A stretch of DNA of 58,199 nucleotides from Caldisericum sp. (GTDB taxonomy: Bacteria > Caldisericota > Caldisericia > Caldisericales > Caldisericaceae). Numbering within the stretch: the first letter of the stretch is position 1; each line of letters begins with the position of its first letter. Where the stretch lies: positions 1 through 58,199 of the forward strand of contig JAEMPV010000062.1 in the NCBI GenBank assembly GCA_022759145.1, given 5' to 3'. Below, one piece after another: positions 6,001 through 39,570 of this stretch. The translations under genes and the position numbers were made by a program. The notes below the pieces were generated by a model. That model did not search any database. It was not told the origin of the DNA and worked only from the letters and a program-made list of their open reading frames with translations.

Positions 6001-6868
6001 CTTCCTGTAACATCCTCTTTTCGTTCTCAAGCATAATGTCAGGTGCGTTAACTTCGTAAAGTTTCTTTAGACGGTTATTTCTATTTATTACCCTTCTGTA
6101 CAGTTCATTGAGGTCGTCAGAAGCATATTTACCACCCTCAAGAGGCACTAAAGGTCTAAGATCTGGTGGTATAACTGGAACCACAGTTAGAACCATATCC
6201 TGAGGCTTTCTGTTATTATTTAGCAAGCCTTCAACAACGCTCAGGAGTCTAACTGCACTACTCTTTTCCTGTGTAGATCCATTCTTCAACTTGTTCAGTG
6301 CATCTTCTCTTAATTTATTTAAATCTACTTTTTCAAGAAGTTCCTTGATTGCCTCTCCACCCTTCTTTGCAACAAAATCAAGATTTTCTTCGAATCTATA
6401 CATATAGTATTCTTCCTCGGAGAGGACTTGTTTAAATCTCAACTTTGTCTTCTTTGGGTCGATTACAACATATGCCACAAAGTAAATAATTTTCTCTACA
6501 TCCTGCGACTTCATATCCAGCAGGAGAGCAATATAATTGATATTGTTCTTAAAATACCAGATATGTGCAACAGGAGTTGCAAGTTGTATGTGCCCGAAAC
6601 GCTCCCTTCTTACTGAGGATGGAAGAATTTCAACTCCGCAGCTTGGACACTTCAATCCTTCGTATTGCTTGCCTTTCAACTTTCCACAATGGCATTGGTA
6701 CGAGTGAACTGGTCCAAAAATTTTCTCACAGAACAAACCATCTGGCTCTGGTAAATAATTTCTATAACTGTAAGTATCACCTCTTTTTACTTCCCCATGT
6801 GACCAGGAAAGTATTTCTTCTTCTGAGGCTAACAAAATCTTTAATGCTTTTATATCCGCTTTATTCAA
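3077..6868 (-). CDS. rpoC: RNA polymerase beta' subunit
   Basis: This is the largest catalytic subunit of RNA polymerase, about 1263 residues. Near the N-terminus is the zinc site [19 protein letters not shown]. The active-site motif NADFDGDQM, whose three Asp hold the catalytic magnesium, is near residue 443. The second zinc site is split: one Cys near residue 776 (DDCAVRR) and [11 protein letters not shown] near 975. That spacing is far wider than the roughly 75 residues in E. coli, because about 120 extra residues carrying repeated beta-beta' modules are inserted between them. A GTG at 6877 lies inside the AGGGGGTG ribosome binding site (6882-6875), so the TTG at 6868, six bases after that site, is the likelier start. 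The next gene upstream is not rpoB but an EF-G-like GTPase, 16 bases away. Confidence 0.96.
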
Positions 6869-6884
6869 AAGGTCCACCCCCTAT

Positions 6885-8909
6885 TTACTCTTCGGATTCT
6901 TTCTTATTGTGTTCCGATTCTTGTATTATTTTTTCAGCAATCTTTGGAGGAACAGGTTCATAGTGAGAATGCTCCATCTTAAACTCACCCGTTCCTTGAG
7001 TTATCGAGTTGAGATCGTTTGCATAGTTCAACATTTCAGCGAGAGGAACATATGCTTCAATAATTTGCTTTCCATTTTCGCTTCTCATTCCAATAACTCT
7101 TCCTCTCTTTGCATTGAGGTCACCTATCACATCACCCATGTACTGTTCATCAACTATTACAACAACTTTCTCAATTGGTTCAAGGAGAATTGAATTTCCC
7201 TGTTCTAAAGCCTTTTTGAGAGCCATCGACCCTGCAATCTTAAATGCAAGTTCCGAAGAATCAACAGGGTGATAAGAACCATCTACAACTGCAACTCCAA
7301 TATCTGTAACTGGATACCCTGCAAGAATTCCTTCTTCCATTGCCTCTTTAACACCCTTTTCTACAGCAGGGATGTACTGCTTTGGTATAGCACCACCGAA
7401 AATTCTACTTTCAAAACTGTATTCCTTGCCTCTTTCGAGAGGTTCAACCTCTAAGAAGCAATGCCCGTACTGACCGTGTCCTCCTGTTTGTTTCTTGTAC
7501 TTTCCTTCTACTTTTACCTTTGTTGTAATAGTTTCACGATATGGAACCTTAGGAACGGTAAGTTCAATGTTAACACCATAACGTCCACTTAACTTTTCCA
7601 TAATTACCGATAGATGAGTCTCTCCAATACCAGAAATGAGTTGTTCTTTTGTTTCCAAATTTTTGGATATTTTTACTGTCGGGTCTTCTTCGGTTATCTT
7701 GGAAAGTCCGATACTCATTCTATCCTCGTCAGTTTTTGTTTTGGGCCTCATTGCCCTTGTGAGCATTGGCTCAGGAAATTCTATTTTCGGAAACTCTATT
7801 GGGTTGTCTTTATCGCAAAGGGTATCATTTGTTTGAGTCACTGTAAGCTTTGTAATAACGGCAATGTCTCCTGCTATCACCTCATCAACAGGTTCCTGGT
7901 TTGAACCAATCATAAAAACAATCTGTCCGGTCTTTTCAAGAGCACCTTTAGATGAGTTGTAAACAGTCGAGTTCGACTTTAATACACCTGAGTACACTTT
8001 AGTAAAAGATAGCTTTCCAACATATGGGTCAGAAAGAGTTTTAAATACAAATGCTGACAAAAATTCATCAACTGCAACTCTTCTTTTCTCTTCTTCTTTG
8101 GTATTGGGGTTGATACCAATAACTTCTCCTAATTCTTCAGGGCTCATCATCACATCAACTGCAAAATTGAGAAGTTCGTCTAAACCAACAAGACTTGTTG
8201 CAGAGCCAAAAAGAATAGGGAACAAATTTCCTTTTATGTATGCATTTTTTAAACCTTTGTTAACTTCTTCCTGAGTAAGTTCCTCTCCACCAAGATACTT
8301 CTCGAGGAGTGCATCATCGGACTCTGCTGCAATTTCCATTAGTTCATGCTTAAAATTATCAAGATTTTGATTTTCAAATACTGATGAGACTTTAGTAAAT
8401 TTTCCTCCTTCGAAAACAGGGTAGTTTAAAGGAATCGCCTTAGGGCCAAAAAAGTCTCTTACAACACTAAGGATATGTTCGACATCAACACCTTCGACAT
8501 CAATCTTATTTATGAAAATTGCACGAGGTTTGTTTTCTTTTTCAAGAAACTTCCAATACTTTTTAGTCTGAATTTCAATACCGCTTGTTGCGTTTACAAG
8601 CATCACGGCATTTTCAGCAGCTCTTATACCACTTAACACCTCGCCTACAAAATCAGCATATCCTGGTGTGTCAAGGAAATTAACTTTAACGCCGTTATGT
8701 TCAACAGGAACAATTGAAAGGCTTATACTGAATTTTCTATTCTTTTCTTCGGGTTGATAATCAGAGACGGTGTTTCCATCCTCAACCCTTCCCATTCTTG
8801 AGATTACCTTTTTCTTAAAAAGAATTGCTTCTAACAAAGTAGTTTTTCCTGCATTCCCATGCGAAACAAGAACTACATTTCTAATCTTGTTAGTTGCTTG
8901 AGCCTTCAT
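6885..8909 (-). CDS. EF-G-like translational GTPase (EF-G paralogue)
   Basis: This is a 674-residue five-domain EF-G homologue that differs at catalytic positions. The P-loop is SHGNAGKT (16-23), switch I reads RKFSI (58-62) in place of RGITI, and G3 is DTPGY (80-84), so the catalytic His of canonical EF-G is a Tyr. NKID at 134-137 is intact. These traits match the family often called EF-G2 or EF-G-like, of uncertain function. Members lacking the His have been reported to bind GTP with little hydrolysis, so a role other than ordinary translocation is likely. The gene starts with ATG after GGAGGAG and overlaps the 3' end of rpoB by 20 bases. rpoC follows 16 bases after its stop. Being sandwiched between rpoB and rpoC is very unusual and implies equimolar expression with RNA polymerase. 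Confidence 0.9.
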   Translation of the reverse strand: MKAQATNKIRNVVLVSHGNAGKTTLLEAILFKKKVISRMGRVEDGNTVSDYQPEEKNRKFSISLSIVPVEHNGVKVNFLDTPGYADFVGEVLSGIRAAENAVMLVNATSGIEIQTKKYWKFLEKENKPRAIFINKIDVEGVDVEHILSVVRDFFGPKAIPLNYPVFEGGKFTKVSSVFENQNLDNFKHELMEIAAESDDALLEKYLGGEELTQEEVNKGLKNAYIKGNLFPILFGSATSLVGLDELLNFAVDVMMSPEELGEVIGINPNTKEEEKRRVAVDEFLSAFVFKTLSDPYVGKLSFTKVYSGVLKSNSTVYNSSKGALEKTGQIVFMIGSNQEPVDEVIAGDIAVITKLTVTQTNDTLCDKDNPIEFPKIEFPEPMLTRAMRPKTKTDEDRMSIGLSKITEEDPTVKISKNLETKEQLISGIGETHLSVIMEKLSGRYGVNIELTVPKVPYRETITTKVKVEGKYKKQTGGHGQYGHCFLEVEPLERGKEYSFESRIFGGAIPKQYIPAVEKGVKEAMEEGILAGYPVTDIGVAVVDGSYHPVDSSELAFKIAGSMALKKALEQGNSILLEPIEKVVVIVDEQYMGDVIGDLNAKRGRVIGMRSENGKQIIEAYVPLAEMLNYANDLNSITQGTGEFKMEHSHYEPVPPKIAEKIIQESEHNKKESEE

Positions 8910-11900
8910 CTAACTCCTCCTTCACCATTTTTCCAAGATTTATTTTTGTTGTTATTTTAGGTAAGAAAGGTTCTTTGACCTTCTTTTCTTCTTTCTTCTC
9001 AGGCAGTACCTTCAAGTCTATAGCAAGACCTCTTAATGTTCTTTGCAAAACATTGAATGATTCAGGAATACCGGTTTCAAATATTGTTACGCCCTTTGAT
9101 ATTGCTTCATATGCACGTTTCCTTCCCTCAAGGTCGTCAGACTTAATAGTGAGCATTTCGTGTAGAAGATTTGCAGCACCATATGCTTCAAGAGCCCAAA
9201 CTTCCATCTCACCGAGTCTTTGGCCACCAAATTGTGCCTTACCTCCAACTGGCTGTTGTGTAATAAGCGTGTATTTGCCAACCGCTCTTGCGTGTATCTT
9301 ATCTTCTGCAAGGTGATTGAGTTTCAAGAAGTACGCTTCGCCAACAGTTACTTTATATTCAAAAGGTTTTCCTGTTCGTCCATCATACACAGTCATTTGT
9401 CCAGACTCATCAAGATTTGCCTTCTTTAGAAGAGACCTTACATCTTTTTCTGATGCGCCAATAAAGGAAGGTGTTACAACTCTCACATTCAGATTTCTTG
9501 CAGCAATTCCAAGATTTGCTTCTAATATCTGCCCTATATTCATTCTTGAAGGAACTCCAAGTGGACTTACGATAATATCAACGGTAGTTCCATCTTCAAG
9601 ATAAGGAAGGTCTTCTTCCGGGACAATTTTACTTACAACACCTTTATTTCCATGACGACCAGCGAGTTTATCACCAACGATTATTTTCCTCTTCTTTGCA
9701 ACAAATATCTTAATTACCTTCAGGGCATTCTTAGTGAGCTCGTAACCCTCTTCCCTTGAGAAAACCTGGACATCGATAACTACACCCCCTTCTCCAGGAG
9801 GGACTACAAAAGAACTATTCTTAAGATTACTGTTTCTGTTACTCCACAAACTTCTCCAAATTTTCGCTTCGTTAGATTCTTCTTCTTCTGGGAACGGGGT
9901 AACTTTTCCTACAAGAACATCTCCTGGTTTTACCTTTGAACCAACCTTTACGATACCTTTCTCGTCGAGGAAACGAAGGGCTTCTTTTCTTACATCCCTT
10001 ATATCAGGGGTAAGTTCTTCTGGACCTTGCTCAGTTTCATGAACTTCAACGGTATATTCCTTAATATGAACAGAAGTTAATCTATCTTCGCTTACTAATT
10101 TTCTGCTTATAACAATAGCATCCTGATAATTGTACCCATACCATGAAAGATATGCGATAAGAACATTAATGCCAAGAGCCATTTCCCCATTTTTCGTTGC
10201 ATAACCATCTGCAAGAGGCATACCCTTTTTAACAATATCGCCTTTCTTTACAATCGGCCTTTCGTTTCTGCAGGTGTCCTGATTTGTCCTTTCGAATTTT
10301 CTTAATCGATAAACAACTTCCTCTCTTACCCTGACTTTATTAACGCCTGCCTCTGCAAGTTTTCTTAACTTATCTAAGGTAATTAGCTCGCCTGCTTTTA
10401 TAATAACTTCGTCTTTTTCGTTTGTGTAATCCTTTGCAACAACCCTGTCAAGGAGGTCCTCGTTAATCTTGCCAAGATTGAATGTTTCGACTTCCTGTGG
10501 TGAATAAACAAGTAAGTCTGTAACACCCTTATCATAGAGTTCGTTTAGAAGTTCCTCTGTTATTTGAGGCTCGAATCTTAGAGTTCTCTTCGTATTTGTT
10601 AATGTCCCAAAGAGGCTTTTTCCAATTATATTTTTGCCCAACGCAGTTAACTCAAGCTTAAAGACAGGCTTTGTAACTATATTACCATCCTCTTCAACCT
10701 TGATTTCTTTAACACCGCTTTGCTCATAAAGCCTGTTCAACTTTGTATCCGATATTTTTTGCCCTTCTTCAATAAGAGGTTTACCTTTTTTACTTACAAT
10801 AGTTTCCTTTGCAACAAGACCAATAAGGTCATCGTTTCTCTCTTTATCAAAGCAATTTGTTATAGCAAACTTCTGGATTTTATCTGATTCTATAATAGAA
10901 ATTTGTTCAATACCGTGTGTTATAAGTTTATCGATAACCTGTGGAGTTATCTTTTCACCAACAAGTTTGTAATAATCTTCAATCTCAGGCTTTATATCTA
11001 AGAGCACTATCTCTTTCTGCTTTGCTCTATTGAGTAAACTTTGCTTAAGGTCTGATGCTTCTCTATAAACAGAAACATCAACTGATTTTGCATCATTAGG
11101 AACAATATGTATCTCGCTTCCATCAACATAAGAAACAATTCCGTCGTGTTGAGAGAGAGGAAGGTCGAGGTCATCTATTGCAATTTTCCCCTCGTAACCT
11201 GTAGAAACCCTTGGAAGTTCTGGATCTAAAAGCGGGACAGCCTGTCGCTGCATGTTGCAACCCATTAACGCCCTGTTTGCATCGTCGTGTTCAAGGAAAG
11301 GAATAAGAGACGCAGATGGGCTAATAACCTGTTGTGGAGAAACATCCATAAGTTGAACCGCATCTTTTGAAACAAGTTGAGGAAGAATTTCACCAGATTC
11401 AGTTCTCTTTCTTGCAATAACAAGTTCTGCAGTTATTCTTCCTTTGTCATCAACGGGGGTATTAGCCTGGGCAATAATATATTTTTCTTCTTCGTCTGCA
11501 GTTAGATAAACAATTTCGTCAGTAACAACACCATCTTTTACAATCCTATAAGGAGTTGTTATAAAACCATATTCATTAACGCTTGCAAACATCGTAGGAG
11601 AGTTAATAAGCCCTATGTTCTGACCTTCAGGAGTTTCAATAGGACAAATTCGACCATAGTGCGAGGAGTGAACATCTCTTACTTCGATACCTGCTCTTTT
11701 TCTGTGCAATCCTCCTGCACCAAGCGATGTAAGCCTTCTCTTGTGAGTTAACGAGGCAAGAGGGTTTGTTTCCTCCATAAACTGGGATAACTGGCTTACA
11801 CCAAAGAACTGTCTTAGCTGCCCTGTAATTGCCTTGTTGCTAAAGATGGAGGGAATTGTAATTTCCTCAGGCTTTTTGATTGCAATTGCCTCTTTAGCAC

Positions 11901-13086
11901 TTCTCTGGACCTTTAATGCACCTTTCTCAAATTCCTCTGCAATGAGTTCGCCAACTGTTCTTACACGCCTGTTTGCAAGGCTATCTATATCATCTTCTTT
12001 TTCTATTCGCTCTCTAACTTTAATCAAGTGAGAGATAATATCTGTAAAATCATCTTTAGTAAGGATGTGGTCGTCTCTTTCGACATTGAACTTCTTATTA
12101 ATTTTGTACCTTGAAACCGGATAATACTCATTTCTTCTCGGATCCATCAAAATGTTATGGACAAGTTCGTCTGCAGCTTCTGGTGTGACCCTTTCTTTTG
12201 GATGGAAAATCTTGTATATTTCAATTTTTGCTTCTTCAGAATTATTTGTTTTATCTTTTTTAAGAGTTTGTTCAACCCAATAATCGTAACCTTCAACTTT
12301 TAAAGTGGCACGAAGAATATTAGCCTCACGCATTTTTTCAAAAGACTCTTCTGTAAGGATTGTTCCACTCTTTAAGATAACTTTACCTTCTGAATTTTTA
12401 ATATCCTCAATGAGTTTCTTTCCGAGTACTACATCATATGAAAAAGGAGATGTGGTCAACACATCAACACTCATCGTCTGGTAGAACTTTTCAAGAATTT
12501 CCTCGTTATTCTTGAAACCAATTGCCTTTAATACTACCGTAACTGGAAGTTTTTTCATCCCCTTCTTTAAACGGATGTACATAACATTATCTTTTCCAAC
12601 TTCCATTTCCATCCAGTTTCCTCTATCAGGGATAATGGTTACTATATAATTAGTAAAACCACTTTCAACATCTTTTTCGGTCTGGAAATAAACGCCAGGA
12701 GACCTTATCAATTGTTGAACTACAACCCTCTTTTTCCCGTTAATGATAAAAGTGCCATCGGGAAGCATTTTCGGAATATCCGCAAGTAAAGCTTCCTGTT
12801 CCTTTATCTCACCAGTGTTTTTGTAAATTAGCCTGAATTTCCCCTTGATTGTTGCTTCATATGTAGTTCCAACTCTAACGCAATATTCAGGCGTTTTTAC
12901 AGGATCAACAACCGAATAAGATACAAATTCAACTCTTATATTTTTCGTATCTATTGGGAATATTCTCTTTAGAATTTCCCCAATCCCCTCATTTAAAAAT
13001 TTTTCGTAGGACGAGATTTGAACATTTAACAAATCAGGCAAAGGTATACTCAATTTCGTTTTTCTAAGGTCTAAAATTTTATCCAT
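8890..13086 (-). CDS. rpoB: RNA polymerase beta subunit
   Basis: This is the second catalytic subunit of RNA polymerase, about 1398 residues and so longer than most. The rifampicin-pocket region lies near residues 425-465. It reads FMEETNPL and [13 protein letters not shown], with Glu and Thr where E. coli has D516 and S531. Between IHIVPN (about 662) and [14 protein letters not shown] (about 925) there is an insertion of roughly 260 residues built of repeated modules that resemble those in RpoC. The C-terminus has the conserved [20 protein letters not shown] segment. Two adjacent ATGs exist at 13089 and 13086. The second has the better spacing to AAGGAGG (four bases). The gene is not preceded by rplKAJL as in many bacteria but by moaC, and it has its own promoter at 13118-13145. 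Confidence 0.97.
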   Translation of the reverse strand: [1398 protein letters not shown]

Positions 13087-29172: not shown

Positions 29173-30165
29173 TTACTTTGAGTACTCTGCTACTTTGCCC
29201 TCTTTTACAAAGTGGCAGGCAACATAGTGACCTGAGCCAACATCGATTAATGGTGGCTCTTTTTCTGCGCAAATATCCTTTGCGAATCGGCAACGAGTTC
29301 TAAACCTACAACCAGATGGAGGATTGATTGGCGATGGAATATCTCCCTGAAGGAGTATCCTCTCCTTCTTTATCTCTGGGTCTGGTATGGGGATTGCAGA
29401 AAGAAGTGCCTGTGTATATGGATGAAGAGGTGTTGTAAATAGTTCTTTTGTCTCTGCAACTTCCATAAGTTTTCCAAGGTACATAACACCAATTCTATCG
29501 GAAACATGTCTTACAACAGCGAGGTTATGTGCAACAAGCAGATATGTTAAAGCAAGTTTTTGCTGTAACTCGAGAAGAAGGTTTAAAACCTGTGCCTGAA
29601 TTGATGCATCAAGTGCAGATACGGGCTCGTCTGCTACAATAAATTTAGGATTTAATACGATTGCTCTTGCAATACCTATCCTCTGTCTCTGACCGCCCGA
29701 AAATTCGTGTGGATATCTTCTCAGATACTCAGGGCGAAGCCCTACAAGTTTCATTATTTCAACAACTCTTTCTTCCTGCTCTTTCCTGTCGCCAATACGA
29801 TGCACCAGAAGGGGCTCACGAATTATTTCACCTATAGGCATCCTCGGATTAAGTGAACCATAGGGGTCCTGGAATATAATCTGCATTTCCCTTCGTATAG
29901 GTCTCAATTTACTTTCAGGAAGTTTTGTAATATCTTTGCCATCAAAGATAATTTTACCTTTTGTTGGCTCTATTAGTCTAATTATTGTTTTTCCAGCAGT
30001 GGTCTTTCCACTTCCACTTTCTCCCACAAGTCCAAATGTTTCTCCTTCAAAAATATGGAAACTTATGTCATCAACAGCCTTAACCCAGCCTACCGGCCTT
30101 GAAAAAACACCACCCAAAACAGGGAAGTGCTTAACAAGATTCTGAACCTCAAGTAATTTTTTCAT
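29173..30165 (-). CDS. oppF: Oligopeptide/dipeptide ABC transporter ATPase (OppF/DppF type)
   Basis: A 330-residue ABC ATPase that powers uptake with the two permeases upstream. It has Walker [10 protein letters not shown], the Q-loop [10 protein letters not shown], the signature [14 protein letters not shown] and Walker [13 protein letters not shown]. The C-terminal extension has the four-Cys segment starting [15 protein letters not shown], typical of peptide importers. In some relatives these Cys hold an Fe-S cluster. The ATG overlaps the oppD stop by four bases. It is the last gene before a strong terminator. Substrate (peptide or nickel or sugar) is not fixed by sequence, but the SBP family favours peptides. 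Confidence 0.93.
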
Positions 30166-31163
30166 GCGTTAGCCTCCTTCTCCACAGCAACCGGATGGAA
30201 ACACCTTACAAGGTGCCCTGGTTCAATTTCAACAAGTTCTGGCATCTCTTTTCTACAACGTTCAGTTGCAAATGGGCATCTTGGGTTGAAGTGACAGCCA
30301 CTTGGCATCCTGTACGGGTTTGGAACCATTCCTTCTATCGCTGGAAGTGGTGTTTTTGTCTTTTCAGTCTTCAAACTCGGGACTGAACTTAAAAGCCCAT
30401 AGGTATATGGATGTCGTGGACGCTTAAAAATCGAATACACATCGCCATATTCAACTATTTTTCCAGTGTATGCAACTGCAACTGAATTCGCCATTTCTGC
30501 AACAAGAGCAAGGTCGTGAGTTATAAAAAGTATTGCCATTCCTGTTTTTCTCTGGAGGTCTTTCATAAGTTCAAGGATTTGCGCCTGAATTGTTACATCC
30601 AATGCAGTAGTTGCTTCATCTGAGATAAGAAGATCGGGGTTACAGGACATAGCCATTGCAATCATTACCCTCTGTCTCATTCCACCGCTCAACTCGTGTG
30701 GATATTGGTTAAATCGTCTCTCGGGCTCTGGAATTCCAACAAGCCTCAAGAGTTCTATTGTTTTCTTCTTTGCTTCTTCCTCACTTACATCCTGGTGTAC
30801 TAAGATTGCTTCCATTATCTGATCGCCAACAGTATAAACAGGGTTAAGCGAGGTCATAGGCTCCTGGAAGATCATTCCAATTTCAGCACCTCTAATTTTT
30901 CTCATTTGTTCTGGTGTTTTCTTCACAAGGTCTTCGCCTTTAAAGATAATTTCTCCACCAACAATTTTCCCAGGCACATCAACAAGCTGCATAATCGACA
31001 TTGATGCAACCGATTTTCCACAGCCACTTTCTCCAACAAGCCCGAGAACTTCACCCTTGTGAATTGTAAAACTCATTCCGTCAACTGCCTTAACAACTCC
31101 GTCATCTGTAAAAAAGTATGTCTTAAGATCTCTTACATCAAGTAAAACTTCTCCTCTTTCCAT
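30162..31163 (-). CDS. oppD: Oligopeptide/dipeptide ABC transporter ATPase (OppD/DppD type)
   Basis: A 333-residue partner ATPase. It has Walker A GESGCGKS, the Q-loop [10 protein letters not shown], the signature [14 protein letters not shown] and Walker [13 protein letters not shown]. The C-terminal domain again has four Cys ([15 protein letters not shown] and RCFHP). It would form a heterodimer with the OppF homologue. It begins seven bases after oppC and overlaps oppF by four. Confidence 0.93.
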
Positions 31164-31170
31164 CTCTCAC

Positions 31171-32064
31171 CTACCTATATAACCTTGGGTCCATAGCATC
31201 TCTTAATCCATCGCCAAGGTAGTTAAAAGCAAGAACTGTTATAAACATAGCAATACCTGGGGACCACACAAGCCATGGTGCAATCGCCATAGCATACTCG
31301 GCATTTTGAAGCATATTTCCCCAGGAAGGTGTTGGAGGCATAACACCGAAGCCAAGGAAACTCAGTGCTGCCTCATAAATAATATTTCCACCTACACCAA
31401 GTGTTGCAGATACGATAATTGGTGCAAGGGAATTTGGAAGTATATGTCTCCAGATAATTCTGTTGTTCGAAACACCTATCGCTCGTGCTGCTTCAACATA
31501 CTCATTTTCTCTTAACGAAAGGAACATTCCTCTTACTATTCTTGCGTCGGTCATCCAGCCAAATATTGCAATGACCAATACAATTTTCCAGACACCAGAG
31601 CCAGGAATAACAGCAGAAAGAACGATTAAAAGTGGCATAACAGGTATTGAGAACATGATATCCGTGAATCTCATAAGAAGAGTATCGAGGATTCCGCCAT
31701 AATAGCCAGCATATGCTCCTACAATTATTCCTATAACAAGAGCAGAAAAAACTGAAGAAAATCCAACCAAAAGTGAAATTCTTCCACCATATAGTAGACG
31801 CGTCAAAACATCTCTTCCAAGTTCATCTGTCCCAAGTGGGTGTTTCAAACTTGGTGGCTGCATAACTTCTTCAGTTGAACCAAGTGCTGCAACATGATAA
31901 GGGGAAAGATAGGGTCCAACAACACAAGCAAGTATTATGAGAATCAATACAACAAGCGAAATCATTGCAAGTTTGTGCTTTCTTAATCTTTTCCCAACAA
32001 GATACCAGTATGTTTCAACTCTACCGGTTAATACTTCTTCTACTTTTGTCGCTTCAACTGCCAT
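31171..32064 (-). CDS. oppC: Peptide ABC transporter permease (OppC/DppC type)
   Basis: A 297-residue inner-membrane permease with about six membrane helices. The N-terminal helix follows a basic segment (KRLRKHKLAM). HPLGTDELGRDVLTRLLYGGR is the typical DppC motif, given here only as a family marker, and the EAA loop EAARAIGVSNNRIIWRHILP contacts the ATPases. It starts ten bases after oppB with GGAGG spacing. It is part of a four-gene transporter following the SLH-bearing binding protein. Confidence 0.93.
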   Translation of the reverse strand: MAVEATKVEEVLTGRVETYWYLVGKRLRKHKLAMISLVVLILIILACVVGPYLSPYHVAALGSTEEVMQPPSLKHPLGTDELGRDVLTRLLYGGRISLLVGFSSVFSALVIGIIVGAYAGYYGGILDTLLMRFTDIMFSIPVMPLLIVLSAVIPGSGVWKIVLVIAIFGWMTDARIVRGMFLSLRENEYVEAARAIGVSNNRIIWRHILPNSLAPIIVSATLGVGGNIIYEAALSFLGFGVMPPTPSWGNMLQNAEYAMAIAPWLVWSPGIAMFITVLAFNYLGDGLRDAMDPRLYR

Positions 32065-32074
32065 ATCATACCTC

Positions 32075-33043
32075 CTAACTGTACCTTATACGAGGATCAA
32101 CAACAGCGTAAAGTAAATCTGCAATAAGGTTACCAATTATAAGAAGGGTGGATTCAAGAATCAAACAAACCATCGCAACAGGATAGTCGTTTGAAAGCAT
32201 TGCTTGAACTGTAAGCCTTCCCATACCTGGAATGCTGAAAATAGTTTCGGTTATTGTAGCGCCAGATATAACTGCAGGTAAGGAAAGTCCTAAAAGTGTA
32301 ATAATCGGAATAAGTGCGTTCCTTAAAGCATGTTTAAAAATAACAGTCCTTTCAGGAAGTCCTTTTGCTCTTGCGGTTCTTACATAGTCCTGCTTTATAA
32401 CCTCAAGCATGGAACTTCTTGCATAACGCATCCAGGAACCCATATCAAAAAGGGAAAGAACAGTCACGGGTAGAATCATATATTTCAACTGGTCCAGGAA
32501 TCTTACCCAAAAAGGCGCTGTTTCAATTCCTGGAGTCATTACTCCTCCTATTGGAAGCCAACCCAATCTAACTCCAAAAATCATCATAAGAATAAAGCCA
32601 AACCAGAATGTCGGCATCGACATACCAAAAAATGCAATAAAAGTAAAGAAATAATCAAAGAATGTGTACTGGTGAAGTGCAGAATAAATACCAATAGGAA
32701 CAGCAATAACAAAAGAAATAACTAATGATGCAATAGAAAACCTTAAAGTATAATTTATAGCAGTTCCTATTAATTCCGTTACTGGTTTACCACCTGCAAA
32801 AATGGAAACACCCCAGTTGCCTGTAATCATTGACCAGAACCACTTAAAGAACCTTATATAAACAGGTCTGTCAAACCCCCAGGCATGTCTTAATCTTTCA
32901 ACATCCGCTGGCTTAATCCTTGGATTTAACAGCATCTCCTTAAAAGGATCACCAACTAAACTTAAAACAAAAAATGTAACAAGTGCAACCCCTATAAAAA
33001 GCGGTATCATTTGCAGAATTCTTCTTATAAGATAGTTTCTCAC
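32075..33043 (-). CDS. oppB: Peptide ABC transporter permease (OppB/DppB type)
   Basis: A 322-residue permease with about six membrane helices. It starts MRNYLIRRILQMIPLFIGV, typical of DppB, and has the loop RTARAKGLPERTVIFKHALR for ATPase contact. The start is GTG at 33043. A strong hairpin (33066-33097) separates it from the binding-protein gene, so its expression is probably lower than that of the binding protein. Confidence 0.93.
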   Translation of the reverse strand: MRNYLIRRILQMIPLFIGVALVTFFVLSLVGDPFKEMLLNPRIKPADVERLRHAWGFDRPVYIRFFKWFWSMITGNWGVSIFAGGKPVTELIGTAINYTLRFSIASLVISFVIAVPIGIYSALHQYTFFDYFFTFIAFFGMSMPTFWFGFILMMIFGVRLGWLPIGGVMTPGIETAPFWVRFLDQLKYMILPVTVLSLFDMGSWMRYARSSMLEVIKQDYVRTARAKGLPERTVIFKHALRNALIPIITLLGLSLPAVISGATITETIFSIPGMGRLTVQAMLSNDYPVAMVCLILESTLLIIGNLIADLLYAVVDPRIRYS

Positions 33044-33065
33044 TTTTTCCTAAGCCTCCTTGCCT

Positions 33066-33097
33066 TAAAAATAGGGGGCCTCTTTGCGGAGGCCCCC
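33066..33097 (-). terminator. Hairpin between binding-protein and permease genes (partial terminator)
   Basis: On the minus strand GGGGGCCTC, the six-base loop CGCAAA and GAGGCCCCC form a perfect 9-bp GC-rich stem followed by TATTTTTAA. Its place between the solute-binding protein and the first permease suggests attenuation or 3'-end stabilisation, so that the binding protein is made in excess. Confidence 0.8.
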
Positions 33098-33120
33098 GCA
33101 AAGTCACACTAAACTATATA

Positions 33121-35343
33121 TTATTTCTTCTCCCAATACCAGAGTTCTGAGTTGTATGTATAAGTTATTGTCGATGAAAGAACAAATCCAAAACCAGCCA
33201 TTGCAAGATTCTTCTTTACTGTAAAGATATCAGTCCACTGGTTCAAGCCAATTTGAGGAACAAGATCTGCAAGTCTTTGCTCTGCAATGTAGTAGTTCTT
33301 CTGACGGACTGTTGGGTCAACTTCGTGAGTTGCTTTGTAGATTGCATCGTCAAGGGTTGGGTCAGAAATACCCATGTAGTTCTGACCTTGCCAGTTATTT
33401 GCTTCTGTTGGGATTTGTGAGGAGTGATAGAGCGTAAATCCACCTGGATCAAGTGGGTCGCCACCCCATGCAAACATTGCAATTTGGAACATTCTGTGAG
33501 TTGTGTATGTACCAAAGAAGTAAGTAGAAGACAAGAATTTTGTCTGGATGTCGATACCAATCTTCTTAAGTTGTGCTTGTATTACAGTTGCTTCGTCCTT
33601 TCTATCCTGACGGGTTGTTGTTGAAAGTTCAAGAGTTAACTTCTTACCATCTTTGTACCTGTAACCATCTGAACCCATCTTCCAGCCTGCATCATCAAGA
33701 AGTTTATTTGCCATCGCAGGGTCATAACCTGGAAGAACTGCTTTTGGATTCCTGTAGTATTCGTTTAAAAGACCGATGTATGGCCAATGAACTACCTTTC
33801 TTTGACCTAAGAATACACGGTTGTTGAGGTCATCATAGTCAATACCGTAAGCAATTGCTTTACGAACTCTTACATCTGAAAGAATTGGATCTGTGACATT
33901 AAGTTCAAAGTGCTCCCAGTAGGCTGATGGGATTCTTTGAACGTTAATTGTAGGAATCTTCTCTGCTTGTGCTGCTTCTTTAACACCAAGACCAAGGAGA
34001 GTAAGGTCAAGTTTTCCTGCAAGGACGTTCATAAGCATTGTATTTGTATCTGGTATCCACTGATAAACAAATTTTTGTATAAGTGGCTTTGAACCAGCCC
34101 AACCAAACCAGTATGGATTTGGAACAAGGGAGAGATATGAACCCTGAACCCACTGTTCAATCTTATATGGACCACAGTGAACGGGTTTATTTGCTAAATC
34201 TGATGAAGTAATTTGTTCAAGAGGGGTTGAAGCCCAGAAGTGCTTTGGATAAATTGGAAGTCCACCATTTGCATACGGTGTTGTTTCTTTCCAGGTTACA
34301 ACCATTGTATATGGATCTGGAAATTCAATCTTTTCAATTTTATCAAACGGGTCGGTTGTTGGGATTTGAGGAATTTTACCCGAAAGGATGATATCGTAAA
34401 CTGCAAAGTTAATATCATCTTTATAGTTTACAGGAACTCCATCAGACCACTTTACACCCTTCCTGAGATAGTAAGTAGTCTTCATCCACGTTTTCCCATT
34501 CACATCGTACGTTGTCCAGGTGCCATCCTTAAAGTTAGGCACATTAAGAGCCATACGTGGTGCAAGTGTTCCATTCGGATATTCAAAAATAAGACCATCC
34601 TGATACTGTGCTACAATATTCATTGCAGCAGTCATTGATGTAGCAAACCCAAGTAAGGAATCAGGTTCCTGTGTTTGTCCAATAATAACAGTTCCGCCAA
34701 CTTGTGGAGGAACCATAATCTTATAGATTGCAAATGCGCATTCTGCTCTTGTTGCTGCCATTGTTGGGTCAACAGTTCCTTCCTTCATGTGATAGGTAAG
34801 AATCTGGATATCAGGTCTGTATGCAAGAGTTACTGCACCAACTGCCCACGATGCAATCTTTTTCCAGTCATTTGCCCAAACGATTGGTTCGCCTTTCCAG
34901 GCATTTGCTTCTGCTTCTTTACCAAGTACTCTTACTCCAAGAACCGCAAGTTCTTGTCTTGTAATGGAGTTTGCTGGCTTGAATGTGCCATCAGCATAAC
35001 CTTTAATATAACCTGCTTTTACTGCTGCTTCAACATAACCAAATGACCAACGATCTGCCCCTACATCTTTAAATGTTGGAGTTGCAGGTTTTACCTCTTT
35101 CAAGCCTTTTGCGATGCAAATCATTTTCGCAAACTGCTCTCTTGTTACTGGATCTTCTGGCTTAAAAGTGCCATCTGAATAACCTGCAATAACACCCTTT
35201 GATACGAGGTAGTCAATCTGGTCTTTTGCCCAGTAATCAGCAGGTACATCTTTAAAACCTGCAGCAGAAACTGGCAATGGTCTTACCGCAAAAAGCGTTA
35301 AAACCATTGCTAATGCCAATACTACTCCTAATACTTTCTTCAT
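33121..35343 (-). CDS. Peptide-binding protein (SBP family 5) with three N-terminal SLH motifs
   Basis: A 740-residue secreted protein. A Sec signal (1-27) ends VSA-AG with no lipobox Cys. Three SLH motifs follow at about 29-75, 86-135 and 155-210. Each keeps the TR pair (VTREQ, ITRQE, ATRAE), though the third is degenerate. The rest, from about 215, is an OppA/DppA-type solute-binding domain (YYLRKGVKWSDGVPV and related blocks). Most such proteins are lipid-anchored or free, while this one would be bound to the cell wall or its polymer. The ATG at 35343 has GGAGG seven bases upstream. An in-frame TTG at 35403 follows a perfect AAAGGAGGTGA and would add 20 residues, so the start is uncertain. 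It precedes the Opp permeases and follows an ECF sigma factor. Confidence 0.93.
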   Translation of the reverse strand: MKKVLGVVLALAMVLTLFAVRPLPVSAAGFKDVPADYWAKDQIDYLVSKGVIAGYSDGTFKPEDPVTREQFAKMICIAKGLKEVKPATPTFKDVGADRWSFGYVEAAVKAGYIKGYADGTFKPANSITRQELAVLGVRVLGKEAEANAWKGEPIVWANDWKKIASWAVGAVTLAYRPDIQILTYHMKEGTVDPTMAATRAECAFAIYKIMVPPQVGGTVIIGQTQEPDSLLGFATSMTAAMNIVAQYQDGLIFEYPNGTLAPRMALNVPNFKDGTWTTYDVNGKTWMKTTYYLRKGVKWSDGVPVNYKDDINFAVYDIILSGKIPQIPTTDPFDKIEKIEFPDPYTMVVTWKETTPYANGGLPIYPKHFWASTPLEQITSSDLANKPVHCGPYKIEQWVQGSYLSLVPNPYWFGWAGSKPLIQKFVYQWIPDTNTMLMNVLAGKLDLTLLGLGVKEAAQAEKIPTINVQRIPSAYWEHFELNVTDPILSDVRVRKAIAYGIDYDDLNNRVFLGQRKVVHWPYIGLLNEYYRNPKAVLPGYDPAMANKLLDDAGWKMGSDGYRYKDGKKLTLELSTTTRQDRKDEATVIQAQLKKIGIDIQTKFLSSTYFFGTYTTHRMFQIAMFAWGGDPLDPGGFTLYHSSQIPTEANNWQGQNYMGISDPTLDDAIYKATHEVDPTVRQKNYYIAEQRLADLVPQIGLNQWTDIFTVKKNLAMAGFGFVLSSTITYTYNSELWYWEKK

Positions 35344-35378
35344 CCTCATACCTCCTTCTTCTTTTAGTTTTTTTAACG

Positions 35379-35395
35379 AAACTTTTCGAAAGTTT
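35379..35395. repeat. Inverted repeat in the leader of the SLH binding-protein gene
   Basis: AAACTTT, three bases and AAAGTTT form a perfect 7-bp inverted repeat. It lies between two Shine-Dalgarno sequences that could serve the SLH binding-protein gene. The half-site GAAAGTT recurs twice just upstream on the minus strand (about 35402-35408 and 35422-35429), so it could be an RNA hairpin or a protein-binding site. Confidence 0.45.
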
Positions 35396-35415
35396 TTTGC
35401 CAACTTTCACCTCCT

Positions 35416-35850
35416 TTAATGTAAACTTTCAAAACCTAATGGTAACTGCAAACTCCATATATTATTATACAGAAATTGTCGAGATTGCAAATATAAAGAA
35501 AACTTAACTTGATAAAGTGTTTTTTCATTGCTTTTGTAAACCTGGTCAAAAGTTAGGTGCTCAAAATTATTGAGAGGCGATACATCAAACAATACTTCAA
35601 ATATTTTTAAAAGTACAGATAAAATATAAGAGTTTTCCTTACCCTTCTCTTCTCTAAAAGAGCTGAGAGCTTTCAAAAAAACTTTCTCTTTGGATTCTTG
35701 AGGATTGCGTTTCTTTTCTTTTAAAAGCATTGCAACTTCAAAGACATCAACATCCTGAGATGTAAATTTACTGAAATCAGGTGTTTCATCTTTCAAAAAC
35801 TTATCTAACACCTTATCAAATTCATCAAATTTTTCATCCATATTACTCAT
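35416..35850 (-). CDS. Unknown protein following the ECF sigma gene (candidate anti-sigma or sigma partner)
   Basis: A 144-residue protein that I do not recognise. It starts MSNMDEKFDEFDKVLDKFLKD, is acidic in its N-terminal third and Phe/Leu-rich later, and has no membrane helix, no Cys motif and no signal peptide. It overlaps the end of the ECF sigma gene by eight bases, which is the normal position for an anti-sigma factor. A soluble product without a zinc motif would be an unusual one. A promoter for the next gene appears to lie within its 3' end. The function is inferred from position only. Confidence 0.75.
   Translation of the reverse strand: MSNMDEKFDEFDKVLDKFLKDETPDFSKFTSQDVDVFEVAMLLKEKKRNPQESKEKVFLKALSSFREEKGKENSYILSVLLKIFEVLFDVSPLNNFEHLTFDQVYKSNEKTLYQVKFSLYLQSRQFLYNNIWSLQLPLGFESLH
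35464..35491 (-). promoter_or_regulatory. Possible promoter of the SLH binding-protein gene
   Basis: On the minus strand a perfect TATAAT (35469-35464) is preceded by TTGCAA at 15 bases or TTTGCA at 16 bases (35491-35485). It is inside the 3' end of the 144-residue gene and would give a leader of about 50-115 bases, depending on the start codon used. Confidence 0.5.
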
Positions 35851-36397
35851 TAATCATCTCCTCGATAATCTCTTTTAATCTTTTTAACGCCCTATACTGT
35901 AAAACCTTCGTTGCATCTTCAGTTTTGTTAAGAATGTCCGCTATCTCTTTAATGCTTTTCCTTTCATAGAAGCGCAATTTAATAATTTCTTTGTACTGCT
36001 CAGGAAGTAAATTTAATGCCTCCCTTACTAATTTGTTTATATACTCATTTGCGAAAGTTTCATATGGGTCGCTTAGAATTGGCTCATAGTACTTATCAAA
36101 CTTTTCCTCAAGGTCAAGAGTCTCTTTCCCAAGATTCCTTCTAAACCAATCTCTTACCAAATTTCTTTCAATTGCATAGAGCCAGGTATCTATGTGATAT
36201 CCATCCCTTAATTCAAACGAAGGAAGTGACTTTATAAATTTCAAAAATGTTTCAGAAGTAATATCCTCAGCAATATCTTTCATTTTAATCCTTCTATATG
36301 CATAGTTAAAAATCCTTGCATAGTAGTATTCAAAAAACTCCCTAAAAGCAACTTCATCTCCATTTTTTAACCTTTCTAAAACCTTCCTTTCGTCCAA
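35843..36397 (-). CDS. ECF-type RNA polymerase sigma factor
   Basis: A 184-residue sigma70-family protein with only regions 2 and 4. Region 2 covers about residues 10-85 (ARIFNYAYRRIKMKDIAEDITSETF, then DTWLYAIERNLVRDWFRR). Region 4 is near the C-terminus, with LPEQYKEIIKLRFYERKSIKEIA and the helix-turn-helix that follows. It lacks region 1 and most of region 3, as extracytoplasmic-function sigmas do. The start is TTG at 36397, after GGAGAAAGGA. A TGTAAC-16-CGTATA element just upstream (36410-36437) resembles ECF promoters and may mean autoregulation. The unknown gene downstream overlaps by eight bases, and the SLH binding protein follows. Confidence 0.92.
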   Translation of the reverse strand: MDERKVLERLKNGDEVAFREFFEYYYARIFNYAYRRIKMKDIAEDITSETFLKFIKSLPSFELRDGYHIDTWLYAIERNLVRDWFRRNLGKETLDLEEKFDKYYEPILSDPYETFANEYINKLVREALNLLPEQYKEIIKLRFYERKSIKEIADILNKTEDATKVLQYRALKRLKEIIEEMINE

Positions 36398-36437: not shown

Positions 36438-37301
36438 CTAAAAATTACCAACAATTTCACCAACTTTGAAAAGTTTCGGCGTTAAAACAACTATAAATGA
36501 CTTAAACTCACTAAAATCAGGGTCATCCACCTTTACTAACAAAAGACCTGAATCATCTTGAATAATTTTAACTTTTAGGTCTTTTATCACATTTCCATTA
36601 ACGATGTAAACAAAATCTTCTCCGTTCTTTTTAACAATAGCATTCTTTGGAACTTTAAAACCATAAACAATACTATCTAAAATTTTTATACGCTTTTCCA
36701 TCGAAAAAATTTCAGGCAAAAAATCCGATATTCTGTAAAATGCATAATTCTCGTCTTTAGAAACAAACACTGCGTTAGCCTTTACAAAATCGCTTATGTA
36801 TATACTAATGGTATCGGGTGGTTGCTCATTGTATGGGATTGCAAGAATCGCATCGCTTAAAATAATTGAAGCAAAAGGTGAACCAACTTTAACATCTTTC
36901 CTTGAATTCCACTCAAACTTAAATTCGCTATTAACTGAAAGAAGTTCGTTAAAGCTCTTGCATTCCTTATTCACGAAACCCTTTAAAAGGTATCCACTTG
37001 CAGGAGAAGTAATTTCTACGATACCATTTTTTGTAGAAAGTATTGCTATAATTTCTCCTCTTTGCACATAATCAAAATTCTCTCTAAGAAACTGGACATC
37101 ACCTTCGTCGGGTGCAACAATATTAGTTGCGCAAAAAAGTAATTTAAAATTAACTTCGCTATATACTTCGTAATAAGACAAATTTACAGCATAAAATCTA
37201 ACAATATTCTTTCTAATAAAAGACCTTACATCATTTGCAAGACCGAGAAAAATGACTAATATTATAAGGATTGCAATAATTACTACAATTTTCTTTTGCA
37301 T
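36438..37301 (-). CDS. HlyD-like single-pass membrane protein at the end of the division cluster
   Basis: A 287-residue protein with one N-terminal membrane helix (about 5-24) and an extracytoplasmic part. IVAPDEGDVQFLRENFDYVQRGEIIA and ITSPASGYLLKG resemble the two halves of a biotinyl/lipoyl-like fold found in HlyD-type adaptor proteins. The C-terminal part (VPKNAIVKKNGEDFVYIVNG) looks like the adaptor membrane-proximal domain. No transporter gene is nearby. Instead it begins three bases after ftsZ. Similar HlyD-like proteins next to division genes occur in some clostridia, so a role at the division site or cell wall is possible but unproven. Confidence 0.7.
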   Translation of the reverse strand: MQKKIVVIIAILIILVIFLGLANDVRSFIRKNIVRFYAVNLSYYEVYSEVNFKLLFCATNIVAPDEGDVQFLRENFDYVQRGEIIAILSTKNGIVEITSPASGYLLKGFVNKECKSFNELLSVNSEFKFEWNSRKDVKVGSPFASIILSDAILAIPYNEQPPDTISIYISDFVKANAVFVSKDENYAFYRISDFLPEIFSMEKRIKILDSIVYGFKVPKNAIVKKNGEDFVYIVNGNVIKDLKVKIIQDDSGLLLVKVDDPDFSEFKSFIVVLTPKLFKVGEIVGNF

Positions 37302-37304
37302 TCA

Positions 37305-38357
37305 CTACTGTTTTCTTTTCCTTAAGAACGCTGGTATTTCAAAGTCACCTGTATCAAAATTTTCTTCAAATTTGACAACCTTTTCCCTGGGCTTTTCTTC
37401 CTGGACCTTGTCAAAACCTGCCGCAATAAGAGAAACCCTTACCTCATCCTCAAGATCCTCCTGAAGAACTGTCCCGAAGATAAGATTTGCGTTATCACCA
37501 ACAGTCTCCCTTACAAATGTTGAGGCTTCGTTAACTTCGTAAAGTGTCAGGTTTTTCCCACCTGTAATGTTCAGTAACACCCTTGTTGCACCTGTTATCG
37601 AATATTCAAGCAACGGACTCGAAATAGCCTGTTTTGCAGCATCAACTGCACGATTTTCTCCCCTACCTGCGCCAATTCCAAACCATGCATTTCCTGCGCC
37701 TGTAAGGGTCGTTCTTACATCAGCAAAATCAACATTTATAAGTCCTGGCTTTGTTATAATCTCAGAGATGCCCTTAACAGCGTAGAAAAGAACATTATCT
37801 GCTATCCTGAACGCCTCATTAATGGGCGTTTTCTTGTCGATTATTTTAAGGAGTTTGTCGTTAGATATAATAATAAGAGTATCAACAAACTGCAATAAAG
37901 CCTTTATTCCTTCCTCAGCTTGTTGCATTCTCTGTCTTCCCTCAAATGTAAATGGACGAGTTACAACAGCAACGGTAAGAATTCCCAACTCTTTTGCAAT
38001 TGAAGCAATAACCGGGCTTGCACCTGTCCCTGTGCCTCCACCCATACCTGCAGTAATAAAAACAAGGTCTGCCCCTTCTATAACTTTTCTAAGTTCATCT
38101 TTGCTTTCTTCGGCAGATTTTCTTCCAACTTCAGGATAACTTCCTGCACCAAGCCCTCCAGTTGTTCTTGGGCCAATCTGCACCTTCTTTTCTGCCTTGT
38201 TAAGTGAAAGCACCTGGACATCGGTATTCACCGCTATAAACTCGACACCGTCGATGCCCTCGTCGATCATCCTATTTATAGCATTACCTCCACCACCGCC
38301 AACGCCCAAAACCTTTATTCTTGCTTGCGCCGCCTTCCATGGATCCATATCAAACAT
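37305..38357 (-). CDS. ftsZ: Cell division protein FtsZ
   Basis: A tubulin-like GTPase that forms the division ring, 350 residues. It has [11 protein letters not shown] near the N-terminus, the tubulin signature [12 protein letters not shown] and the catalytic-loop region [11 protein letters not shown]. After a short linker it ends with the conserved tail EIPAFLRKR that binds FtsA. The ATG at 38357 (MFDMDPWK) has GGAGG seven bases upstream. An earlier TTG at 38375 is within the end of ftsA and is rejected. It follows ftsA by ten bases. Confidence 0.97.
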
Positions 38358-38367
38358 AAAAAACCTC

Positions 38368-39570
38368 CTATTCAAATATATCTTTTAGCCAGGAAAATCC
38401 CGAGAAATGATTCCTTGGCCTTTTTTGTTCGCTACCTTCAGAAAGCGCATAAAGAATCAAGCCTATAGAAGTTGCATATTCTGGATCGCTTAGGATATCT
38501 GAAAATGTGTATTCTCCTCTTGGAATACCTAACCTAACAGGGACTTCCAAAATAGATTCGGCTCTCTTTACGAAATTCCTGAGTTTTGAACAGCCTCCGG
38601 TAAAAACAACACCAGAGTGCAAGGCACCCCAGTAACCAGACTTTATTAACTCAAGTTTTACCGCCTGCAGGATTTCATCAACCCTTGCCGTTATAACTTC
38701 CGCAAGGTATGAAGAGTCTATTGTCAGTTTTTCTTCTGTTCCTATACGAGAAACCTCAATATTACTTCCTTCAGTATCATCGTTAGTTATTGCGAATCCA
38801 AAGTCCTTTTTGATTCTTTCTGCTTCGTCAAGCGATATGCGCAAAGCGTAGGCAATATCTTTTGTTATATATTCGCCACCAATGGGAAGTACAGATGTAT
38901 GTGCAATCGCTCCATTAACAAAAACCGCAATGTCGCCTGTTCCTGCACCTATATCTACAAGAGCAACTCCAAGTTCCTTCTCCTGTTCCTTAAGAGTTGA
39001 TAGAGATGATGCAAGGGATTGAAGGACAAAAGCCTCTTTCTTTAGAGCAACCATAGAGATTACTTTTTCAATATTGTAGAGGACCGTTGAAGAACCTGTA
39101 ACAATATGAACTTCCTCCTCCAGTTTAATGCCTGACATTCCTATGGGATTTCTTATGCCACCTTGCCCATCAATTATAAACTGCCTTGGAATCGAATGAA
39201 TCACTCGTTGATTTGCTTGAAGCAAAAGAACTCTTGCAGATTCCTCAACCCTTTTTATATCATCTTTGGAAATCTCCCTTCCCTCCTTAGATACAATTAT
39301 GCTTCCTTTATTATTAAGAGAAAAGATATGGGTTCCTGAAACCGAAACATAAACATTTTGAGCCTTTTTCCCTGCCATTGTCTCTGCGGCTTTTTTTGCC
39401 TGCATTACCGCTTCCGATGCCTTATTCAAATCAATAACTACACCTTTACTTACACTTTTGGAAGGGACAGTTCCAACACCAATAATTGAGGCATTGCCAT
39501 CACTCAGTTCCCCTATAAGAAACTTTATAGTTTGGCTGCCAAGGTCGAGTGCCGAAACGATTCTATCCAT
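38368..39570 (-). CDS. ftsA: Cell division protein FtsA
   Basis: An actin-like protein that ties FtsZ to the membrane, 400 residues. It has phosphate-binding loops [15 protein letters not shown] and [13 protein letters not shown] and the adenosine motif [12 protein letters not shown]. The C-terminal [11 protein letters not shown] is an amphipathic helix of the type used for membrane attachment. Its ATG overlaps the ftsQ stop by eight bases. Confidence 0.96.

Follow-up and report, generated by a model that had tools for sequence, protein, structure and literature searches.

Caldisericum is a little-known hot-spring bacterium. The window considered here, i.e. the whole stretch of DNA that was analysed, is a contig of 58,199 nucleotides from this genus. 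According to the ORF listing, its minus strand contains only one long reading frame at 33121-35403, the deduced protein of which combines SLH repeats with an OppA-type solute-binding protein (SBP). The start of this gene is ambiguous, since a GGAGG motif precedes both the TTG at 35403 and the ATG at 35343; relatives outside the genus mostly start at the equivalent of the latter codon. The features of the locus are compiled in Table 1.

Table 1. Features of the SLH receptor locus, with positions in the window.
Feature	Position	Strand	Evidence and remarks
ftsZ, end of the division/wall cluster	37305..38375	(-)	Named from translation; synteny in relatives
Unnamed ORF	36438-37301		No Pfam match; between ftsZ and the receptor gene
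ECF sigma factor	35843-36397	(-)	Sigma70_r2/r4; just upstream of the receptor gene
Small partner ORF, possible anti-sigma	35416-35850	(-)	Just upstream of the receptor gene
SLH-SBP gene as called	33121..35403	(-)	760-residue ORF, TTG start; alternative ATG start at 35343
Sec signal peptide without lipobox, MKKVLGVVLALAMVLTLFAVRPLPVSA	35263..35343	(-)	Translation and relatives
SLH repeat 1	35128..35256	(-)	PF00395, 59.5 bits; W58, G74, R88; residue conservation
SLH repeat 2	34945..35076	(-)	PF00395, 54.3 bits; W119, G135, R149; residue conservation
SLH repeat 3, divergent	34714..34896	(-)	W186, R219, groove Gly absent; motif, conservation, helix pair of the model
OppA-type receptor domain (SBP_bac_5)	33124..34698	(-)	Pfam 6e-71; Foldseek matches
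OppB permease	32075..33043	(-)	BPD_transp_1, 2.4e-44
OppC permease	31171..32064	(-)	Opp4C over the NCBI cut-off, 362.7 versus 350 bits
DppD/OppD ATPase	30162..31163	(-)	ABC_tran and oligo_HPY; forms with DppF the only oligo_HPY pair of the genome
DppF/OppF ATPase	29173..30165	(-)	Domain matches; second of the two oligo_HPY ATPases of the genome
Putative exchanged cassette: SLH3, receptor, OppB, OppC	31171..34900	(-)	Borders approx. 34850-34940 and 31110-31250

The N-terminus of the deduced protein (MKKVLGVVLALAMVLTLFAVRPLPVSA/AG) represents a Sec-type signal with no cysteine past the hydrophobic stretch, so that the lipobox cysteine at the cleavage site that marks lipoprotein receptors is absent. 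Pfam matches far over the cut-offs were obtained for SLH in two stretches (4.8e-31) and for SBP_bac_5 (6e-71; 239.9 versus 32.4 bits, covering positions 15-359 of the 368 in the profile). The third SLH repeat is too divergent for detection by Pfam; its ATRAE motif is intact, and residues 165-174/199-210 of an AlphaFold model (31 relatives as input; pLDDT 88.3, pTM 0.83) form a third helix pair resembling those of SLH1 and SLH2. The model thus displays three alike SLH helix pairs followed by the receptor fold, and a trimer is predicted from two repeats recognized by Pfam and a third recognized by motif and modelled helix pair. A very short linker (VPPQVGG) connects SLH3 with the receptor, for which the best PDB matches of the model in Foldseek are AppA, Thermus OppA and NikZ, i.e. 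peptide and nickel receptors (TM <=0.88). Peptide and nickel receptors are also mixed among the best sequence matches, and no family model exceeded its equivalog cut-off. ORF, Pfam, motif and model accordingly agree with the original prediction of an OppA-type receptor with a Sec signal, no lipobox and three SLH motifs, as do the Pfam assignments with its statement that a permease is adjacent: OppB, OppC, DppD and DppF follow in the same direction. The co-encoded OppB/OppC and oligo_HPY ATPases are the mark of a cluster C ABC receptor.

Upstream of the receptor operon lies the order murC-murB-ddl-ftsQ-ftsA-ftsZ, with names read from the translations. The location of the operon behind this mur/fts cluster is conserved in family f1 and partly in f7 and f4, and synteny across f1 extends to the positions of the ECF sigma factor gene and the unnamed ORF. 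At the loci fetched from f2 and f3 the receptor operon is mostly not next to ftsZ.

Orthologues with 81-87% identity over the full length are present in three other Caldisericum genomes, one of which is a single-contig genome, which argues that the fusion is no assembly artefact; the closest named relatives are assemblies of Caldisericum exile (81-85%). In a scan of genome contigs both parts occurred together in two Caldisericum relatives, in one of them up to the contig end, all other matches covering either SLH or SBP_bac_5 only, and no plasmid record gave a match spanning 80% of the query. The search for further proteins pairing SLH with SBP_bac_5, proposed along with the original prediction, was successful across the phylum Caldisericota, where full-length fusions were detected in families f1, f2, f3 and f7 and a truncated copy in f5. 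Moreover, a sample of 399 genomes from the phylum to which a Peribacillus belongs contained five that encode full-length fusions with weaker SLH motifs, by which uniqueness of the SLH receptor to Caldisericota is ruled out. To our knowledge, receptors of the OppA, DppA and AppA type are free periplasmic proteins or lipoproteins, unlike the window receptor with its predicted SLH trimer. The term non-standard, which had been applied to this architecture, fits in comparison with these receptors but not within the phylum, where the architecture is usual for this importer.

A curated tally of the receptors retrieved from the phylum (an automatic hit in L100 was discarded, as its start had been chosen too far upstream, and L143 was added) yielded 38 that combine at least two SLH repeats with the lack of a lipobox at the start of the mature protein, and 15 ordinary SBP_bac_5 receptors that have both an intact start and a lipobox. 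SLH-bearing proteins occupy two positions in the receptor-domain tree: one is the main clade, the other a clade of f7 whose sister group is the lipoprotein receptors of f1-f3. This indicates that lipid and SLH anchors replaced each other at least once, in one direction or the other. The receptors of f6 are lipoproteins that keep a remnant SLH region. In the f4 receptors, homology of the N-terminal domain is still recognizable (hhalign probability 99.4%), yet neither the SLH motifs nor the conserved Arg remain. As a csaB-family gene does occur in f4, anchoring appears not to be needed in every case. A different domain combination was observed at L162 223-3081 (G012 C61), where a receptor 63% identical to the window receptor domain carries a BNR/sortilin-type beta-propeller in the place of the SLH repeats.

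In SpaA of P. alvei, pyruvylated ManNAc is bound by the Arg of one SLH repeat, the Gly of the next and the Trp of the third, and two of the grooves bind whereas the third does not (PMC6081394). The groove residues of 36 SLH receptors of Caldisericota were scored against this pattern (PMC6081394). Groove 1 (R219/G74/W119) and groove 2 (R88/G135/aromatic 186, W or Y) are complete in all 36 relatives, whereas the Gly is absent from groove 3. A wall-anchoring SLH module was taken to need Arg43-, Gly29- and Trp13-type residues in one groove or more, and grooves 1 and 2 both carry this set. They are invariant while the receptor parts of the same 36 sequences diverge by up to ~70%. The residue pattern of the window protein is therefore like that of SpaA, with two full grooves and one lacking the Gly.

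With respect to the wall polymer, the genome encodes CsaB (TIGR03609, 240.2 bits versus a curated cut-off of 213.1), TarA/TagA (NF041710, 387.2 versus 350 bits) and WecB (508.5 versus 210.2 bits), which form one cluster with a WecA/TagO-like transferase. Six proteins with SLH repeats are encoded in the draft genome, which measures 1.62 Mb and is 99% complete. SLH repeats were found in 54 of 54 genomes of the phylum and a csaB-family match in 46 of these, 23 of which exceed the cut-off. A profile search of the genome gave no match for BamA; for C. exile, a Gram-positive-type envelope has been inferred from the missing BamA despite an outer-membrane-like layer in electron micrographs (PMC4104836). 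The presence of CsaB, TarA/TagA and WecB along with the absence of BamA makes it likely, as judged from gene content, that the SLH-SBP protein is anchored to the wall through a pyruvylated polymer. The csaB-like pyruvyl transferase that the original prediction had recommended looking for is thus encoded in the genome, and its proposal of a receptor held on the wall layer gains support from the csaB cluster, the invariant grooves and the missing lipobox. Its second option, binding to peptidoglycan as in some diderms, is unlikely here in view of the BamA result and the envelope type inferred for C. exile (PMC4104836). A diderm periplasmic or outer-membrane tether of the OmpM or Deinococcus SlpA type was likewise rejected, the cargo being SBP_bac_5 and BamA having no match. 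Beside csaB, one ORF (L024 5451-6890, G000 C24) contains two TagA/TarA-type glycosyltransferase domains. In three f6 genomes the csaB matches lie within open frames of ~1000 residues (G044 C207, G045 C38, G047 C56), which suggests fusion to another domain.

Four SBP_bac_5 receptors are encoded in the genome: the window protein and a paralogue on contig C50, both with SLH repeats, a lipoprotein on C25 and a receptor on C136. The latter (L026 4277-6253, G000) is fused to copper-amine-oxidase N-terminal domains (PF07833, 6e-53) and lacks a lipobox; these domains are possibly a third kind of anchor. Only the two oligo_HPY ATPases of the window operon were found in the genome, along with four receptor-permease sets, and the single-contig genome G009 contains two such ATPases and three receptors. 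In the absence of another oligo_HPY ATPase, the simplest inference is that DppD and DppF serve all receptor-permease sets. The C50 paralogue is located between NamZ and OppBC in a peptidoglycan-recycling operon (L014 2168-17656, G000) that also specifies a GntR regulator, a NagK-like kinase, MurQ, a NagZ-like glycosidase, AnmK, NagA, NlpC/P60 and an LD-carboxypeptidase, and the gene order around this receptor is conserved in G006, G009, G010, G014 and G016. The C50 receptor probably imports wall fragments; for the window receptor such an import is possible, with a weaker case.

Comparisons across the phylum, comprising an identity table, trees with AU tests, a nucleotide scan and distance ratios, indicated that the operon is a mosaic. 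The window protein and its counterparts in other genera of the same family are 62-83% identical in the signal peptide and 69-81% in SLH1-2, whereas identity is 42-54% in SLH3 and 31-36% in the receptor. This order is reversed with respect to loci of f2 (L101, L102) and f3 (L100), with 32-39% for the signal and 62-69% for the receptor. According to the identity table, OppB and OppC track the receptor, whereas DppD and DppF track the family. The cross-family cassette group X was defined as the window genus, L100, L101 and L102, and group Y as L111 of f2 and four f1 genomes. As both groups were picked after the identities had been seen, the p-values of the AU tests are descriptive, the contrast between genes of the operon being independent of this choice: group X was rejected for the signal peptide with SLH1-2 (p 6e-6), DppD (8e-54) and DppF (5e-82), whereas it was recovered with full support in the trees of SLH3-receptor and OppB, and was not rejected for OppC (p 0.25). 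Conversely, the AU tests of SLH3-receptor, OppB and OppC rejected the grouping of family f1 (all p <1e-46), which was recovered or not rejected for the signal peptide with SLH1-2 (p 0.12), DppD and DppF. The AU pattern of group Y was like that of group X.

Nucleotide identity drops at about the SLH2/SLH3 junction and rises again around the OppC/DppD boundary, slightly inside DppD in L100. The ratio of permease to ATPase distances amounts to 1.15-1.63 within a family where the cassette is shared, 3.3-5.5 within a family where the cassettes differ, and 0.74-0.90 between families that share a cassette. Although many of the genomes are metagenome bins, the mosaic is visible within individual contigs, recurs in several independent bins and was also seen in one single-contig genome. 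The phylogenies support the view that the signal, SLH1-2 and DppD/DppF follow the families while cassettes of SLH3, receptor, OppB and OppC would be shared across them. We moderately favour an extended reading in which a chassis of SLH anchor and shared ATPases stays in place and the SLH3-receptor-OppB-OppC block has repeatedly been exchanged between families through in-frame recombination within the SLH trimer, which would yield new wall-anchored import specificities.

Taken together, it is quite probable that the window protein is the receptor of an OppBC-DppDF importer that is held on the wall by an SLH trimer instead of a lipid, and that the chassis is kept while the block is exchanged. 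The protein would be exported via Sec and cleaved by signal peptidase I, whereupon the SLH trimer may bind pyruvylated ManNAc ends of a wall polymer of the TagO/TagA/MnaA/CsaB type. As suggested by family and operon, the receptor domain would catch a peptide-like solute and deliver it to OppBC, powered by DppD/DppF, which probably energize three other OppBC pairs as well. Anchor and ATPases would constitute the chassis kept by the lineage, and exchange of the block, for which the phylogenies speak, would change the specificity. Since the linker is very short, a wall-bound receptor would have to reach the permease by flexibility of the polymer, across a thin gap or by exchange between bound and free states.

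An alternative role for the window receptor is peptidoglycan recycling, in which the wall-seated protein would bind the wall peptides or muropeptides that turnover sets free. The location behind the mur/fts genes in f1, and partly in f7 and f4, is in line with this idea, as are the SLH paralogue on C50 in its operon with MurQ, NamZ, NagZ-like, AnmK, NlpC/P60 and LD-carboxypeptidase genes and the existence of comparable receptor-bearing ABC importers elsewhere, namely YejBEF-YepA (PMC9790009) and MppA (PMC12136057). However, the receptor domains at the dcw-linked locus share only 31-36% identity between genera, so that the locus appears not to be tied to one solute, and the f2 and f3 loci fetched mostly lack ftsZ beside the operon; we consider such a dedicated role unlikely. 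Even less probable is that the SLH repeats are relics or a scaffold for folding, with the receptor free in the wall zone or loosely bound. The missing groove Gly of SLH3 and the wholly degenerate yet retained domain of f4 would fit, but 36 sequences with strongly differing receptor parts all retain every ligand residue of grooves 1 and 2, and the csaB cluster has been kept.

The mosaic itself might also have arisen from ancient tandem paralogues by lineage-specific loss and conversion of the N-terminus, with no transfer between families. Tandem SBP copies do occur in f4 and f6 (L134, L135, L136), and some genomes, such as G025, encode several SLH receptors. The distance ratios run against this scenario, which we regard as doubtful: values of 0.74-0.90 between families, compared with those within families, make the cassettes look younger and favour transfer after the family split over ancient paralogy.

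With respect to known systems, the window locus resembles the OppABCDF, DppABCDF and AppA importers (PF00496) in the receptor fold, the permease pair, the twin ATPases and the arrangement in one operon. With B. anthracis Sap and P. alvei SpaA (PMC6081394) it shares the SLH trimer, the residues of grooves 1 and 2 and genes of the csaB/tagA/mnaA type; the cargo of such SLH proteins is an S-layer lattice or a hydrolase, whereas here it is a transport receptor. Nutrient handling is also placed at the wall in Paenibacillus JDR-2, where SLH-bearing glycoside hydrolases accompany ABC importers; as described in the available part of that source (PMC4765114), it is the enzymes that bear the SLH repeats, the receptors of the importers being separate proteins, whereas in the window the repeats are on the receptor. 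The muropeptide importer YejBEF-YepA is a functional parallel to the C50 paralogue, from a Gram-negative host and with no SLH anchor mentioned in the abstract (PMC9790009). In the open-access literature no description of SLH-anchored ABC receptors or of SLH fused to solute-binding proteins was found, and database entries with the pair of SLH and SBP_bac_5 may exist. The more surprising part is the exchange of cassettes on a chassis, rather than the SLH repeats on a receptor.

In cells that have no outer membrane, the receptors of ABC importers normally carry a lipid anchor. Some importers of this phylum have a predicted wall-binding clasp in place of the lipid, by which the limit on the distance between receptor and membrane becomes testable. 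The mosaic further indicates that a receptor can be replaced without loss of the anchor fused to it and that permeases travel with the receptor while ATPases stay, which is a candidate design rule for re-targeting importers.

On contig C112 of the genome (L015, G000), the SLH repeats of the ORF at 10604-12682 are fused to an apparent 5'-nucleotidase/metallophosphatase. The same contig contains an anaerobic ribonucleotide reductase-like ORF of 1535 aa at 4532-9139, in which two intein-like inserts with LAGLIDADG-type motifs were recognized by eye.
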